The notes below the pieces were generated by a model. That model was not told where the DNA came from. It saw nothing but the letters and a program-made list of their open reading frames with translations, and made no database searches. 64,000 nt of DNA from an uncultured Flavobacteriaceae bacterium (GTDB lineage: Bacteria > Bacteroidota > Bacteroidia > Flavobacteriales > Flavobacteriaceae), in assembly GCA_947497245.1 (NCBI GenBank), contig CANMFO010000001.1, positions 1,178,001-1,242,000 of the forward strand, in the 5' to 3' direction. This document shows positions 49,954-52,694 of this stretch, in pieces. Positions within the stretch are counted from its first letter, which is position 1. Each line of letters opens with the position of its first letter. The position numbers and the translations under genes are program-made.

Positions 49954-51207
49954 ATGCAAGAAGTAGTTACCTCAGTTCAGGAGCAAGCAGAATTAATAAG
50001 CAGTATCGATACGGTATGGGTGGCCATCTGCGCCGCCCTGATCTTTCAGATGGAAGGCGGGTTTGCCTTGCTGGAGGCCGGATTCGTGCGCGCAAAAAAT
50101 GCCATGAGTATCATTGCCAAAGTGATCATGGACATCACCTTTGGGGGCATTGCCTTTTATGTTGCCGGCTTTGGCATTGCGTATGGCGCTTCGAACGGAT
50201 GGTTTGCCTTTGATGTCGGCATTACGGATGCGGATCTGGGCCTCGGCCTCACCGTCTCCAACAAACTGTTCTGGTTTATCCAGCTCGGTTTTGCCCTGGC
50301 GGCCATTTCTATTGTCTCCGGAGCGGTCGCGGAGCGCATGAAAGTTTGGCCCTACGCCCTTTTTGTATTTGTATTTTGTGCGGTCATGTACCCATTGGCG
50401 GCCAATTGGGTGTGGAATCCAGACGGTTGGTTGGCCCAGCGTGGCTTTAACGATTTTGCCGGTTCGGCCGCCGTGCACGCCATGGGGGGGTTCGCGGCCC
50501 TGGCCGCTGCCATTGTGCTCGGCCCCCGTTTGGGAAAGTACCAAAAAAACGGGGAGGTGAACCCCATTCCCGGCCACAATCTTCCGTTGGCGGCCGTAGG
50601 AGGGTTTGTCCTGTGGTTTGGCTGGTTCGGCTTCAATCCCGGGTCTACCTTGGCAGCAGTTGGGAATTGGGAATTGATCGGGACCGTGGTGACCAACACC
50701 TTTCTGGCATCAGCAGCGGGCGGCATCTCGACCATGGTCTATACCTATTTTAGATATGGGCAGATCGATATTACCATGGCCATAAACGGGGTATTGGCCG
50801 GCCTAGTGGCCATTACCGCCGGGTGCAATGTGGTGGGCCCAAATTCCGCCATCATCATAGGGGCCATTGCAGGGGTGTTGGTCGATGTTGCCGTGATCTA
50901 CATCGATAAGATCAAAATAGACGATCCCGTCGGTGCCATAGCCGTACATGGGGTAAATGGCCTTTTCGGTACCATGGCCGTCGGTTTTTTTGCCACCGAG
51001 AACGGGCTTTTCTTCGGTGGAGGGGCCGCACAACTATGGACCCAGGTCCTTGGGGTATCGGTCATCGGGGCCTTTTCGTTTACGGTCACCTTTGTATTGA
51101 TGAAACTGATGAAGCGCACCATTGGCGTCCGGATCTCGCGCTCGGAGGAGACCGCCGGGATCGATGCGGCGACATTTGGCGTGGAATCCTATTCCACTTT
51201 TGAATAA
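49954..51207 (+). CDS. amt: Ammonium transporter
   Basis: 417 residues with about eleven membrane segments; ammonium transporter family. The N-terminal QMEGGFALLEAGFVRAKN, and the twin pore histidines in AAVHAMGG and in IAVHGVNGLFG are present. No cleavable signal peptide is obvious. A P-II gene follows after 75 bases, the usual partner that blocks the transporter when nitrogen is plentiful. The leader shares repeats with that of serA. Confidence 0.94.
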   Translation: MQEVVTSVQEQAELISSIDTVWVAICAALIFQMEGGFALLEAGFVRAKNAMSIIAKVIMDITFGGIAFYVAGFGIAYGASNGWFAFDVGITDADLGLGLTVSNKLFWFIQLGFALAAISIVSGAVAERMKVWPYALFVFVFCAVMYPLAANWVWNPDGWLAQRGFNDFAGSAAVHAMGGFAALAAAIVLGPRLGKYQKNGEVNPIPGHNLPLAAVGGFVLWFGWFGFNPGSTLAAVGNWELIGTVVTNTFLASAAGGISTMVYTYFRYGQIDITMAINGVLAGLVAITAGCNVVGPNSAIIIGAIAGVLVDVAVIYIDKIKIDDPVGAIAVHGVNGLFGTMAVGFFATENGLFFGGGAAQLWTQVLGVSVIGAFSFTVTFVLMKLMKRTIGVRISRSEETAGIDAATFGVESYSTFE

Positions 51208-51282: not shown

Positions 51283-51624
51283 ATGAAAAAAGTAGAAGCA
51301 ATAATAAGACCTTCAAAGTTAAAAGCGGTCCAACGCGGCCTAAAGGAAGCGGACATGCCCTGCGTCACCGTCATTCCCGTAAAGGGCACGGGCCTGCAAA
51401 AAAGCTATTCCGAACGGTACCGGGGCACCGAACAGTCCATGATCCTGCAGACCAGGGTGATGATCATCTGTGTGGTAAGCGACGAGAACCTGGAAAAGTG
51501 CATCGATGTCATTCTCGACAATGCTTCCGAGGGCCAGGTCGGGGACGGAAAGATATTTGTCTACGAAGTCCAGGACGCCATACGCCTGAGCACCAGGGTG
51601 CGCGGCAACCCCGCCATCCATTGA
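51283..51624 (+). CDS. glnK: P-II family nitrogen regulatory protein lacking Tyr51
   Basis: 113 residues of the P-II trimer family. The T-loop, normally RGxEYxVxF with uridylylated Y51, reads RYRGTEQSM with Q51. The B-loop GDGKIFVYEV is normal, so ATP/2-oxoglutarate sensing is likely kept but uridylylation is not. It is paired with the ammonium transporter. The 3' gap carries the 22-bp repeat array. Confidence 0.9.
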   Translation: MKKVEAIIRPSKLKAVQRGLKEADMPCVTVIPVKGTGLQKSYSERYRGTEQSMILQTRVMIICVVSDENLEKCIDVILDNASEGQVGDGKIFVYEVQDAIRLSTRVRGNPAIH

Positions 51625-51779
51625 GGACGCCCCTTTTCCCCTGTCAAGGGTAGCGGTCGCGGGAACGCCCGCGTGCTGTGGCCCATCCCAGAACCTTAAA
51701 GCTTTCAAATATCGGAGCGAAGTGGAGCTGCTTCCCTCCCGGGGATTCGTATGCCCCATCTTACGGGACATTGGTCGTT
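51625..51779. other. Gap before the 22-bp array
   Basis: No gene seen. It contains a strong 6-bp hairpin CGCGGG/CCCGCG around AACG (near 51658-51674) and two array-like elements out of phase (TCCCGGGGA at 51737 and ATGCCCC at 51751), possibly decayed units. Confidence 0.4.
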
Positions 51780-51988
51780 TCCCCAGGGGAAAGTTCCAAA
51801 ATGCCCCAGGGATAATTTCAGTATGCCCTGGGGATGATCACAGGATGCCCTAGGGATTGTGATAGGATGCCCTAGGCATTGTGATAGAATGCCCTAGGGA
51901 TTGTGGCAGGATGCCCGGGGCATTTTATAAAAACGCCCGGGGCAAAATAAAAAAATGCCCTAGGGATTTTAATAAAGTCCCTGGCCAC
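51780..51988. repeat. Ten-unit 22-bp tandem array with palindromic cores
   Basis: Each unit has an 11-bp GC-rich core (consensus TGCCCTAGGGA) and an 11-bp A/T-rich spacer (consensus like TTGTGATAGGA, drifting to A and T runs at the right end). The invariant CCC starts at 51782, 51804, 51826, 51848, 51870, 51892, 51914, 51936 and 51958, exactly 22 apart; a tenth follows after 21. Cores are near-perfect palindromes in changing forms (CCCCAGGGG, CCCTAGGG, GCCCGGGGC). It cannot be a coding repeat since 22 is not a multiple of three. Confidence 0.9.
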
Positions 51989-52115
51989 GGTGAAAATAAG
52001 GTCATGAAAAAACAATGATCGAGGGTTTTATGTCCGATTTCGTTAACTTTAGTGATCAAATGGTCGTCCGGGCCCGATCCGTGCCCGACGACCTCGAACC
52101 TAAAAACAACAAATC
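51989..52115. other. Gap between the array and the next gene
   Basis: No gene seen. A weak -7-like box TAACTTTA occurs about 60-70 bases before the ATG at 52116 with no matching -33 box. Confidence 0.3.
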
Positions 52116-52694
52116 ATGAAAAATTTACTGATCCTCGCAATGGTAGCCACTTTGAACAGCTGTGCCCAGACCCCGGCCGTACCACCTGCCGACTGGCAGA
52201 TCAAAACCGCCGTGATGGCCGCTCCCGAGGAATACCAAGAAGGTGCAAAAGTATACGGTTACGACGAGAAGGGATCCTTTACGACCTTACGGGAAGGCAC
52301 CAATTCCTACATCTGTATTGCGGACGACCCACAAAAAGAAGGGTTTTCAACCGCCGCCTACCATATGGAACTGGACGAGTTCATGGCCCGCGGCCGTGCG
52401 CTCAGGGCTGAGGGCAAGGAAGGAGAGGAAATATTCGATATCCGAGAGGAAGAAGTAAAGGCCGGAAGCCTGAAGATGCCCGACAAATCTACCCTATGTG
52501 TCTTCTCAGGGACAGTGAACCCGGAGACCCTGGAAATTGAAAACCCCTATGTGCGCTACGTGTTCTATGTGCCCTTTGCGACGGGCGAGTCCACAGGCCT
52601 TCCGACAAAGGCAACGCCCCCGGGCCATGCCTGGCTCATGGATGCCGGAACGCACAGGGCGCACATCATGATCACCCCGCCCAAACCCGAATGA
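52116..52694 (+). CDS. Lipoprotein of unknown function downstream of the array
   Basis: 192 residues. The lipoprotein signal ends LNSC (lipidated C16), followed by AQTPAVPPADW. The mature part is acidic, contains no recognised domain, and includes YGYDEKGSFTTLREGTNSYIC and a C-terminal segment GHAWLMDAGTHRAHIM. Its ATG is about 130 bases after the 22-bp array, so the array may belong to its control region. Function unknown. Confidence 0.75.
   Translation: MKNLLILAMVATLNSCAQTPAVPPADWQIKTAVMAAPEEYQEGAKVYGYDEKGSFTTLREGTNSYICIADDPQKEGFSTAAYHMELDEFMARGRALRAEGKEGEEIFDIREEEVKAGSLKMPDKSTLCVFSGTVNPETLEIENPYVRYVFYVPFATGESTGLPTKATPPGHAWLMDAGTHRAHIMITPPKPE

Follow-up and report, generated by a model that had tools for sequence, protein, structure and literature searches.

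The window, the whole stretch of 64,000 nucleotides that was analysed, contains an ammonium transporter gene, amt (49954..51207, + strand), recognised by a match to PF00909 (E 1.2e-111), and a P-II regulator gene (51283..51624, + strand; PF00543, E 4.5e-24). Downstream of this pair is a tandem array of ten units at 51779..51998 on the + strand, and the next ORF encodes 192 aa with a lipoprotein-like start (52116..52694, + strand) and matched no Pfam family at E 0.001. The Pfam searches thus agree with an earlier examination of the bare DNA, the sequence-only reading, which had placed the array between an ammonium transporter/P-II pair and an unknown lipoprotein. A P-II match was found in 23 of the 40 genomes searched, with identities of 26-43% outside the window copy. 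The P-II gene in the window is a second copy, and the other copy in this genome, at C2:1018089 (C1, C2 and so on are contigs of the window's genome), has 43% identity. We refer to the type of the window array as T1. A local role for it with amt/P-II or the lipoprotein-like ORF was considered and dropped because the other T1 copies adjoin unrelated genes, in convergent as well as divergent gaps.

The units of the window array begin at 51779, 51801, 51823, 51845, 51867, 51889, 51911, 51933 and 51955, and these nine are in exact 22-bp register. The tenth unit is degenerate and its CCC is one base early, so that the unit starts bear out the earlier description of nine CCC cores 22 bp apart with a tenth at 21. 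TRF reported the array, with period 22/44, and a single further tandem repeat elsewhere in the window. The best lag-autocorrelation of the array over 110 bp was 0.78, compared to a maximum of 0.52 in 60 block-shuffles of the window, and chance is excluded as an explanation of the array by these block-shuffles and by TRF. The size of core and spacer, which had been put at 11 bp each, was slightly off; the conserved core is 13 bp, with the form ATGCCC-N-GGGCAT or the shifted form ATGCCCTAGGGAT, and the AT-rich linker is 9 bp. The only well-kept columns in the linker are T16 and A20, and the rest are near random. T16 and A20 are symmetric about a second axis, so in our reading of the columns two-fold axes recur approximately every 11 bp.

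Individual units differ in how closely they follow this design. Three typical units of the ATGCCCTAGGGATTGTGATAGG type (51845..51910, + strand) gave the best match in the window array to R1, a three-unit T1 sequence model made from 27 overlapping windows (E 2.8e-16). The first unit, TTCCCCAGGGGAA (51779..51800, + strand), has diverged, with both sides of the dyad changed from G3/C11 to C3/G11. The last three units in register (51911..51976, + strand) have the cores CCCGGGGC / CCCTAGGG and AT-rich linkers. Dyad matches in the core were calculated for 36 units from four T1 arrays, a set that leaves out the shifted tenth unit of the C8 array and keeps the tenth unit of the window array. They reached 0.71, compared to a column-permuted mean of 0.28, and 1/2000 permutations was as high, an excess that fits the earlier proposal that symmetry of the core is selected.

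A DNA search together with R1 found four T1 arrays of 8-10 units in the 5.25-Mb genome, at C1:84k, in the window, at C2:253k and at C8:85k. No fifth T1 place below E 0.01 was found by R1 among the 150 of 1940 first-look candidates that were scored in this genome. The neighbours of the four arrays are amt/P-II/lipoprotein-like ORF, PIG-L/cytochrome, DUF922/BshC and HU-Ig/RRF. On C2 the T1 array follows the HU-Ig stop codon at a distance of 8 nt, and the other three are unlinked orphans. The window array scored 72.4 bits against a profile of the HU-linked C2 array, and -5.9 and -17.3 bits against the profiles of two other array types, T2 and T3, whereas 300 random 230-bp stretches of C2 gave at most -4.3 for any type. 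The window array and the array behind the C2 HU-Ig gene are of one type.

The HU-Ig gene at C2:252453-253151 encodes an HU-DNA_bdg domain (PF14848) and an Ig-like tail, DUF4469 (PF14734), with scores of 79.9 and 53.7 bits against gathering cut-offs of 30 and 22.6. It lies after an MMPL transporter gene and before the RRF gene, which is followed by an ORF resembling pyrH by eye. The HU-Ig profile matched a solved structure, PDB 4fmr, with E 1e-23 and an alignment across both domains; the molecule is named 'uncharacterized hypothetical protein', and the listing of the entry gives no DNA site. The match of the profile to the HU structure 5eka was weak (0.003), and matches to HU 1b8z and IHF 2iie were not significant. 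Two AlphaFold predictions bearing on dimer binding had pLDDT values of 41.5 and 46.8 and were unusable at this low confidence.

Four genes in this genome exceed the cut-off for PF14848. The second of these HU-Ig paralogues has T2 behind its stop codon, with 22-bp units and cores such as ACACGTGC, and the third is followed in the same way by T3, also of 22 bp, with the lettering ACTTTC..CGATT and units such as CACTTTAAGTG. No array was seen at the fourth paralogue (C2:920898). T2 has three orphans (C6:63k, C2:493k and C2:322k), and T3 has one, C2:47k, in the part of the genome scanned. Three further 22-bp arrays, at C2:65k, 939k and 1091k (65661, 939486 and 1091185), have other lettering, for example GAACATCCCGGATGTTC, and are poor fits to all three linked types; therefore, not every array has a known gene. 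A type-blind scan covered 1.2 of the 5.25 Mb (C2), where seven 22-bp arrays are known, six of them through the scan and 493k separately, and all seven lie outside ORFs of at least 150 aa. Ten arrays of this genome were classed by the direction of their flanking genes, a set that leaves out C6:63k and the arrays at the HU-Ig loci C1:999k and C5:171k. Four were convergent, two divergent and four tandem, a spread that does not favour promoters. No significant trace of a decayed HU gene was found beside the nine unlinked arrays examined. The weak HU matches at such arrays were to ORFs that resemble a topoisomerase subunit, a cytochrome and a dehydrogenase by eye, and these were rejected.

A search of related genomes, which the sequence-only reading had recommended, was made with BLAST and with R1. 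BLAST detected no T1 array in nine congeners, and no PF14848 gene above the cut-off was found in any of the nine, in keeping with co-occurrence of gene and array (three of the nine are 81-87% complete, and kinship of the genomes is as given by their labels). In congeners, DUF922 is near bshC in 8/9 and MMPL is near frr in 8/9, and these bshC and frr loci have no HU match and no array. Among 397 family genomes, which include at least three congeners and of which 13 candidates each were scored, R1 found this genome and three weak matches (E 0.003-0.009). When the weak matches in G143, G333 and G356 and at C4:21k and C1:99k of this genome were read, no array was seen at any of them. Among 395 genomes of the phylum, again with 13 candidates scored in each, there was one more match with E<0.001, in G652 (E 1.3e-4). 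This is a real array, with 22-23-bp units and cores such as CCCTATAGGG, and it lies approximately 290 bp 3' of a gene encoding HU-DNA_bdg and DUF4469. A strict 26-base degenerate T1 pattern, which has three matches within the window array, did not match the contigs of named genomes or viral contigs, and protein scans of viral contigs found no relatives of HU-Ig.

The four HU-Ig genes of this genome and the one in G652 gave rise to the idea that such arrays belong to the gene family, and 41 HU-Ig genes from Bacteroidota, one spirochaete plasmid and two phage scaffolds were therefore surveyed. Three genes came from named genomes, 30 from 12 of the 395 phylum genomes (the four of this genome included, with at most seven candidates scored per genome), six from plasmid records (one Treponema and five P. 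distasonis) and two from faecal phage scaffolds. A repeat within 500 bp 3' of the gene, at any lag of 15-40, was called significant when it was equalled by at most two of 200 dinucleotide shuffles. Such a repeat was found at 37/41 genes, and its period was 22-24 in 37/37, although all lags from 15 to 40 were allowed. The strict count without the five genes that gave the idea is 33/36, and 39/41 genes have an array when the sequence is read by eye. At any lag, the upstream control was positive for 2/40 genes (lags 21 and 27) and the far-downstream control for 2/41, one of which was the displaced array of gene L131 itself. With an equal threshold of 27/46 matches at lag 22-24, repeats were found at 37/41 HU-Ig genes, compared to 9/809 ORFs of at least 150 aa on C2 of this genome only, a control in which the C2 HU-Ig gene itself and ORFs adjacent to orphans are counted. 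The counts were 33 HU-Ig genes against seven ORFs at 28/46 and 30 against seven at 30/46.

The arrays begin a median of 36 nt past the stop codon and have a median of five units (39 arrays). Dyad symmetry was present in 29/39 arrays at no more than 10/200 column permutations in a crude test, which the other ten failed. Both genes of Leptobacterium flavescens have an array, as do the Treponema plasmid gene and the P. distasonis gene in each of the five records. At L157 the array is borderline (3/200 shuffles) and reads as an array. No 3' array was seen at the remaining two genes, L143 and L156; the genes without one are the fourth paralogue of this genome and a gene of one phage scaffold. The array of L131, in G633, is displaced to +550, and by eye approximately four tandem repeats of roughly 105 bp lie between it and the gene. 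Control of the next annotated gene would be possible on the Treponema plasmid and in four of the five P. distasonis records, where this gene has the same orientation. L154, L152, L153 and L155, HU-Ig genes from P. distasonis plasmid records, have the following neighbours: a site-specific integrase; fimbrillin-family genes; an MraY-family glycosyltransferase with a gene of the acyltransferase family; and a hypothetical protein that precedes an InlB B-repeat protein. The HU-Ig proteins of L152 and L153 have the same tail, GGGDSESPDEI, yet are only approximately 29% identical overall.

The lettering of the arrays mostly differs from gene to gene. Cores include ACACCGACGGTGT and AACCAGGTT in L. 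flavescens, CATGATAGCTATCATG, TCCCTAACGCTAGGGA and GGTAAATCACTATTACC in P. distasonis, GCGTCATTACGCTAACGC in Treponema and GACATACTAATGTC and CCTTATAAGG in G652. HU identity correlates with array similarity (Mantel rho 0.29, 0/1000 permutations). Mean array similarity was 0.67 (range 0.47-0.91) for the 11 cross-genome pairs with at least 70% HU identity, 0.44 for the 486 cross-genome pairs below 30% and 0.48 for the 51 pairs within one genome. Distant paralogues have arrays that are unlike, and those of close relatives are alike. The privacy of the array codes is not absolute, since close pairs within one genome have like arrays (L133/L123 and L114/L112, with HU identity above 80% and similarities of 0.80 and 0.78), as do some distant pairs, such as L121/L138 (28% HU identity, 0.77). 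L146/L142, with 72% HU identity, have an array similarity of 0.51. Shared ancestry or co-inheritance of neighbouring DNA could explain part of the joint divergence of gene and array. The survey suggests a family of DNA-packing proteins that has gone undescribed until now, in which every member would have its own private address.

The window array is an unlinked member of T1 and probably a row of dimer sites for the C2 HU-Ig protein. That protein is the most likely partner of T1 because a T1 array stands directly behind its stop codon. Of the functions proposed in the sequence-only reading, dimeric protein sites lined up along one face of the DNA have the best support, with C2 HU-Ig as the likely binder. 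We infer that an HU-domain dimer sits on each palindromic core. As 22 bp corresponds to two helical turns, adjacent dimers would share one face of the DNA, and contact between them could be provided for by the second axis in the linker. Protein would then coat the array and give a regular nucleoprotein filament that is probably bent. A linked array would keep the HU-Ig gene and its address together in inheritance, and orphan arrays would be remote addresses where the same structure is built, perhaps for local architecture or for the pairing of distant loci, with possible effects on genes. With less confidence, we lean towards a wider proposal: HU-Ig may be a phylum-wide histone-like family in which each gene inherits a private 22-24-bp palindromic array, diverged paralogues in one cell use different codes, every code has a few orphans scattered along the chromosome, and the nucleoprotein sites of a paralogue are built or linked by that paralogue itself.

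Another possible explanation is that an HU-Ig gene and its 3' array transpose or recombine as a mobile module and that the orphans are derivatives that have lost the gene, as MITEs are to insertion sequences. The patchy occurrence of genes and arrays between species, the congener bshC and frr loci that have neither and a site-specific integrase gene upstream in one P. distasonis record would agree with this. However, the gene has no transposase domain, no remnant of it was found at the nine unlinked arrays examined, arrays of one type share the design of their units with no common flanks noticed, and the cores differ between modules, unlike the ends of an element. We consider a mobile module unlikely. 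Even less probable is an operator array of another regulator, such as a local one for nitrogen or the lipoprotein, with a coincidental link to HU. The window array does end approximately 118 bp before the start of a gene, on the 3' side of amt/P-II, and palindromic cores suit many regulators, but T1 copies are also found between convergent genes, and 22-24-bp repeats are far more frequent behind HU-Ig genes than behind the ORFs of C2.

The array could also act as RNA, its transcript forming hairpins for termination, stability or processing. Many small hairpins had been among the earlier suggestions, and as RNA each strand gives a better fold than its shuffles do (z -5.65 and -4.04), as would be expected from any array of palindromes. 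The cores CCCTAGGG and CACGTG have no room for a hairpin loop, and the single Rfam match is attributed to chance. A crude script placed a terminator-like hairpin before the array in 9/39 cases, so that these linked arrays are beyond the terminator-like hairpin of the gene, after it in seven and at neither side in 23. The loopless cores and the placement of hairpins favour action at the level of DNA, and we regard an RNA element as very unlikely. The least probable alternative is a neutral slipped-strand tandem repeat, which had been named beforehand as the case that would refute a function. Its tandem geometry, the variable number of T1 units and the slightly greater likeness of linkers within T1 arrays than between them (0.47 and 0.42, 36 units) are what slippage could leave behind. 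Slippage would also make the units of one array clearly more alike, and this was not observed. Identity of the T1 core is 0.77 both within and between arrays (36 units), and identity over all positions of T2 is 0.65 within and 0.64 between (25 units). The conservation is in the core, with linkers near random apart from two columns, and the period is confined to 22-24 in the significant gene-linked arrays. Neutral slippage is, therefore, largely contradicted.

The site row proposed for C2 HU-Ig resembles several known systems in part. In Rep-iteron replicons, the gene of a DNA-binding protein also stands beside repeats of approximately 22 bp, two turns apart, and the sequence-only reading had noted iteron-like spacing in the absence of a replication gene. 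The geometry is right, and no initiator gene was seen beside any of the four T1 arrays, which differ from iterons also in having chromosomal orphans and palindromic instead of directional cores. ParR-parC and ParB-parS are alike in that an array is linked to the gene of its binder and remote sites are possible, but no ParA/ParM-type motor gene is among the C2 neighbours read, and several array types occur in one genome here. In contrast to the near-identical repeats and unique spacers of 20 bp or more in CRISPR, T1 has a period of 22, a 9-bp linker and variable cores. HU and IHF share the HU-type domain, as seen by profile (PF14848 and the weak 5eka match), and HU-Ig differs from them by the Ig-like tail PF14734 and by the tandem palindromic array of each gene. 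IHF binds and bends specific sites, and the usual description of HU-type proteins is that they pack DNA with almost no specificity. We know of no HU or IHF gene with its own tandem array of palindromic sites.

Burroughs et al. in 2017 reportedly described an HU-HIG expansion in Bacteroidetes, which belongs to the same broad superfamily and has lineage-specific expansions; 3' arrays and private addresses are not known to be described there. Our literature search, which covered few subscription papers, found no account of HU/IHF genes carrying such arrays, and DUF4469 was mentioned in no paper within that scope. Arrays of the HU-Ig kind are not described in passages of PMC5771137. If the proposal is true, a little-studied branch of HU recognises specific codes, and for every member the cognate site can be looked up in the genome, just behind the gene. 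The private addresses of the paralogues would mean that HU folds evolve sequence codes quickly, and, with dozens of natural pairs of protein and site available, simple in-vitro binding could test a recognition code of the HU fold. The proposal would also offer orthogonal DNA-organising parts and assign a role to two domains whose annotation is no more than 'DNA-binding domain' and 'DUF4469'.

A motif found in front of HU-Ig genes, around ...ATTACATGGGTTTTTCTTTCC, was considered as the other end of a mobile module and rejected; it also precedes unrelated genes and is, therefore, taken for a promoter-like element. A recurrent promoter-like element, ...CGCCCGAATATTACATGGGTTTTTCTTTCC...TTTTATCTGCAGTTTT, is absent from the window at up to four mismatches and precedes two HU-Ig genes and several other genes on C2 (252365, 610006, 611981, 624314, 635001, 920339, 944295 and 946061). 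The T1 core is built on CCTAGG despite a strong depletion of CTAG across the whole window, where 34 were found and approximately 250 are expected from base composition.
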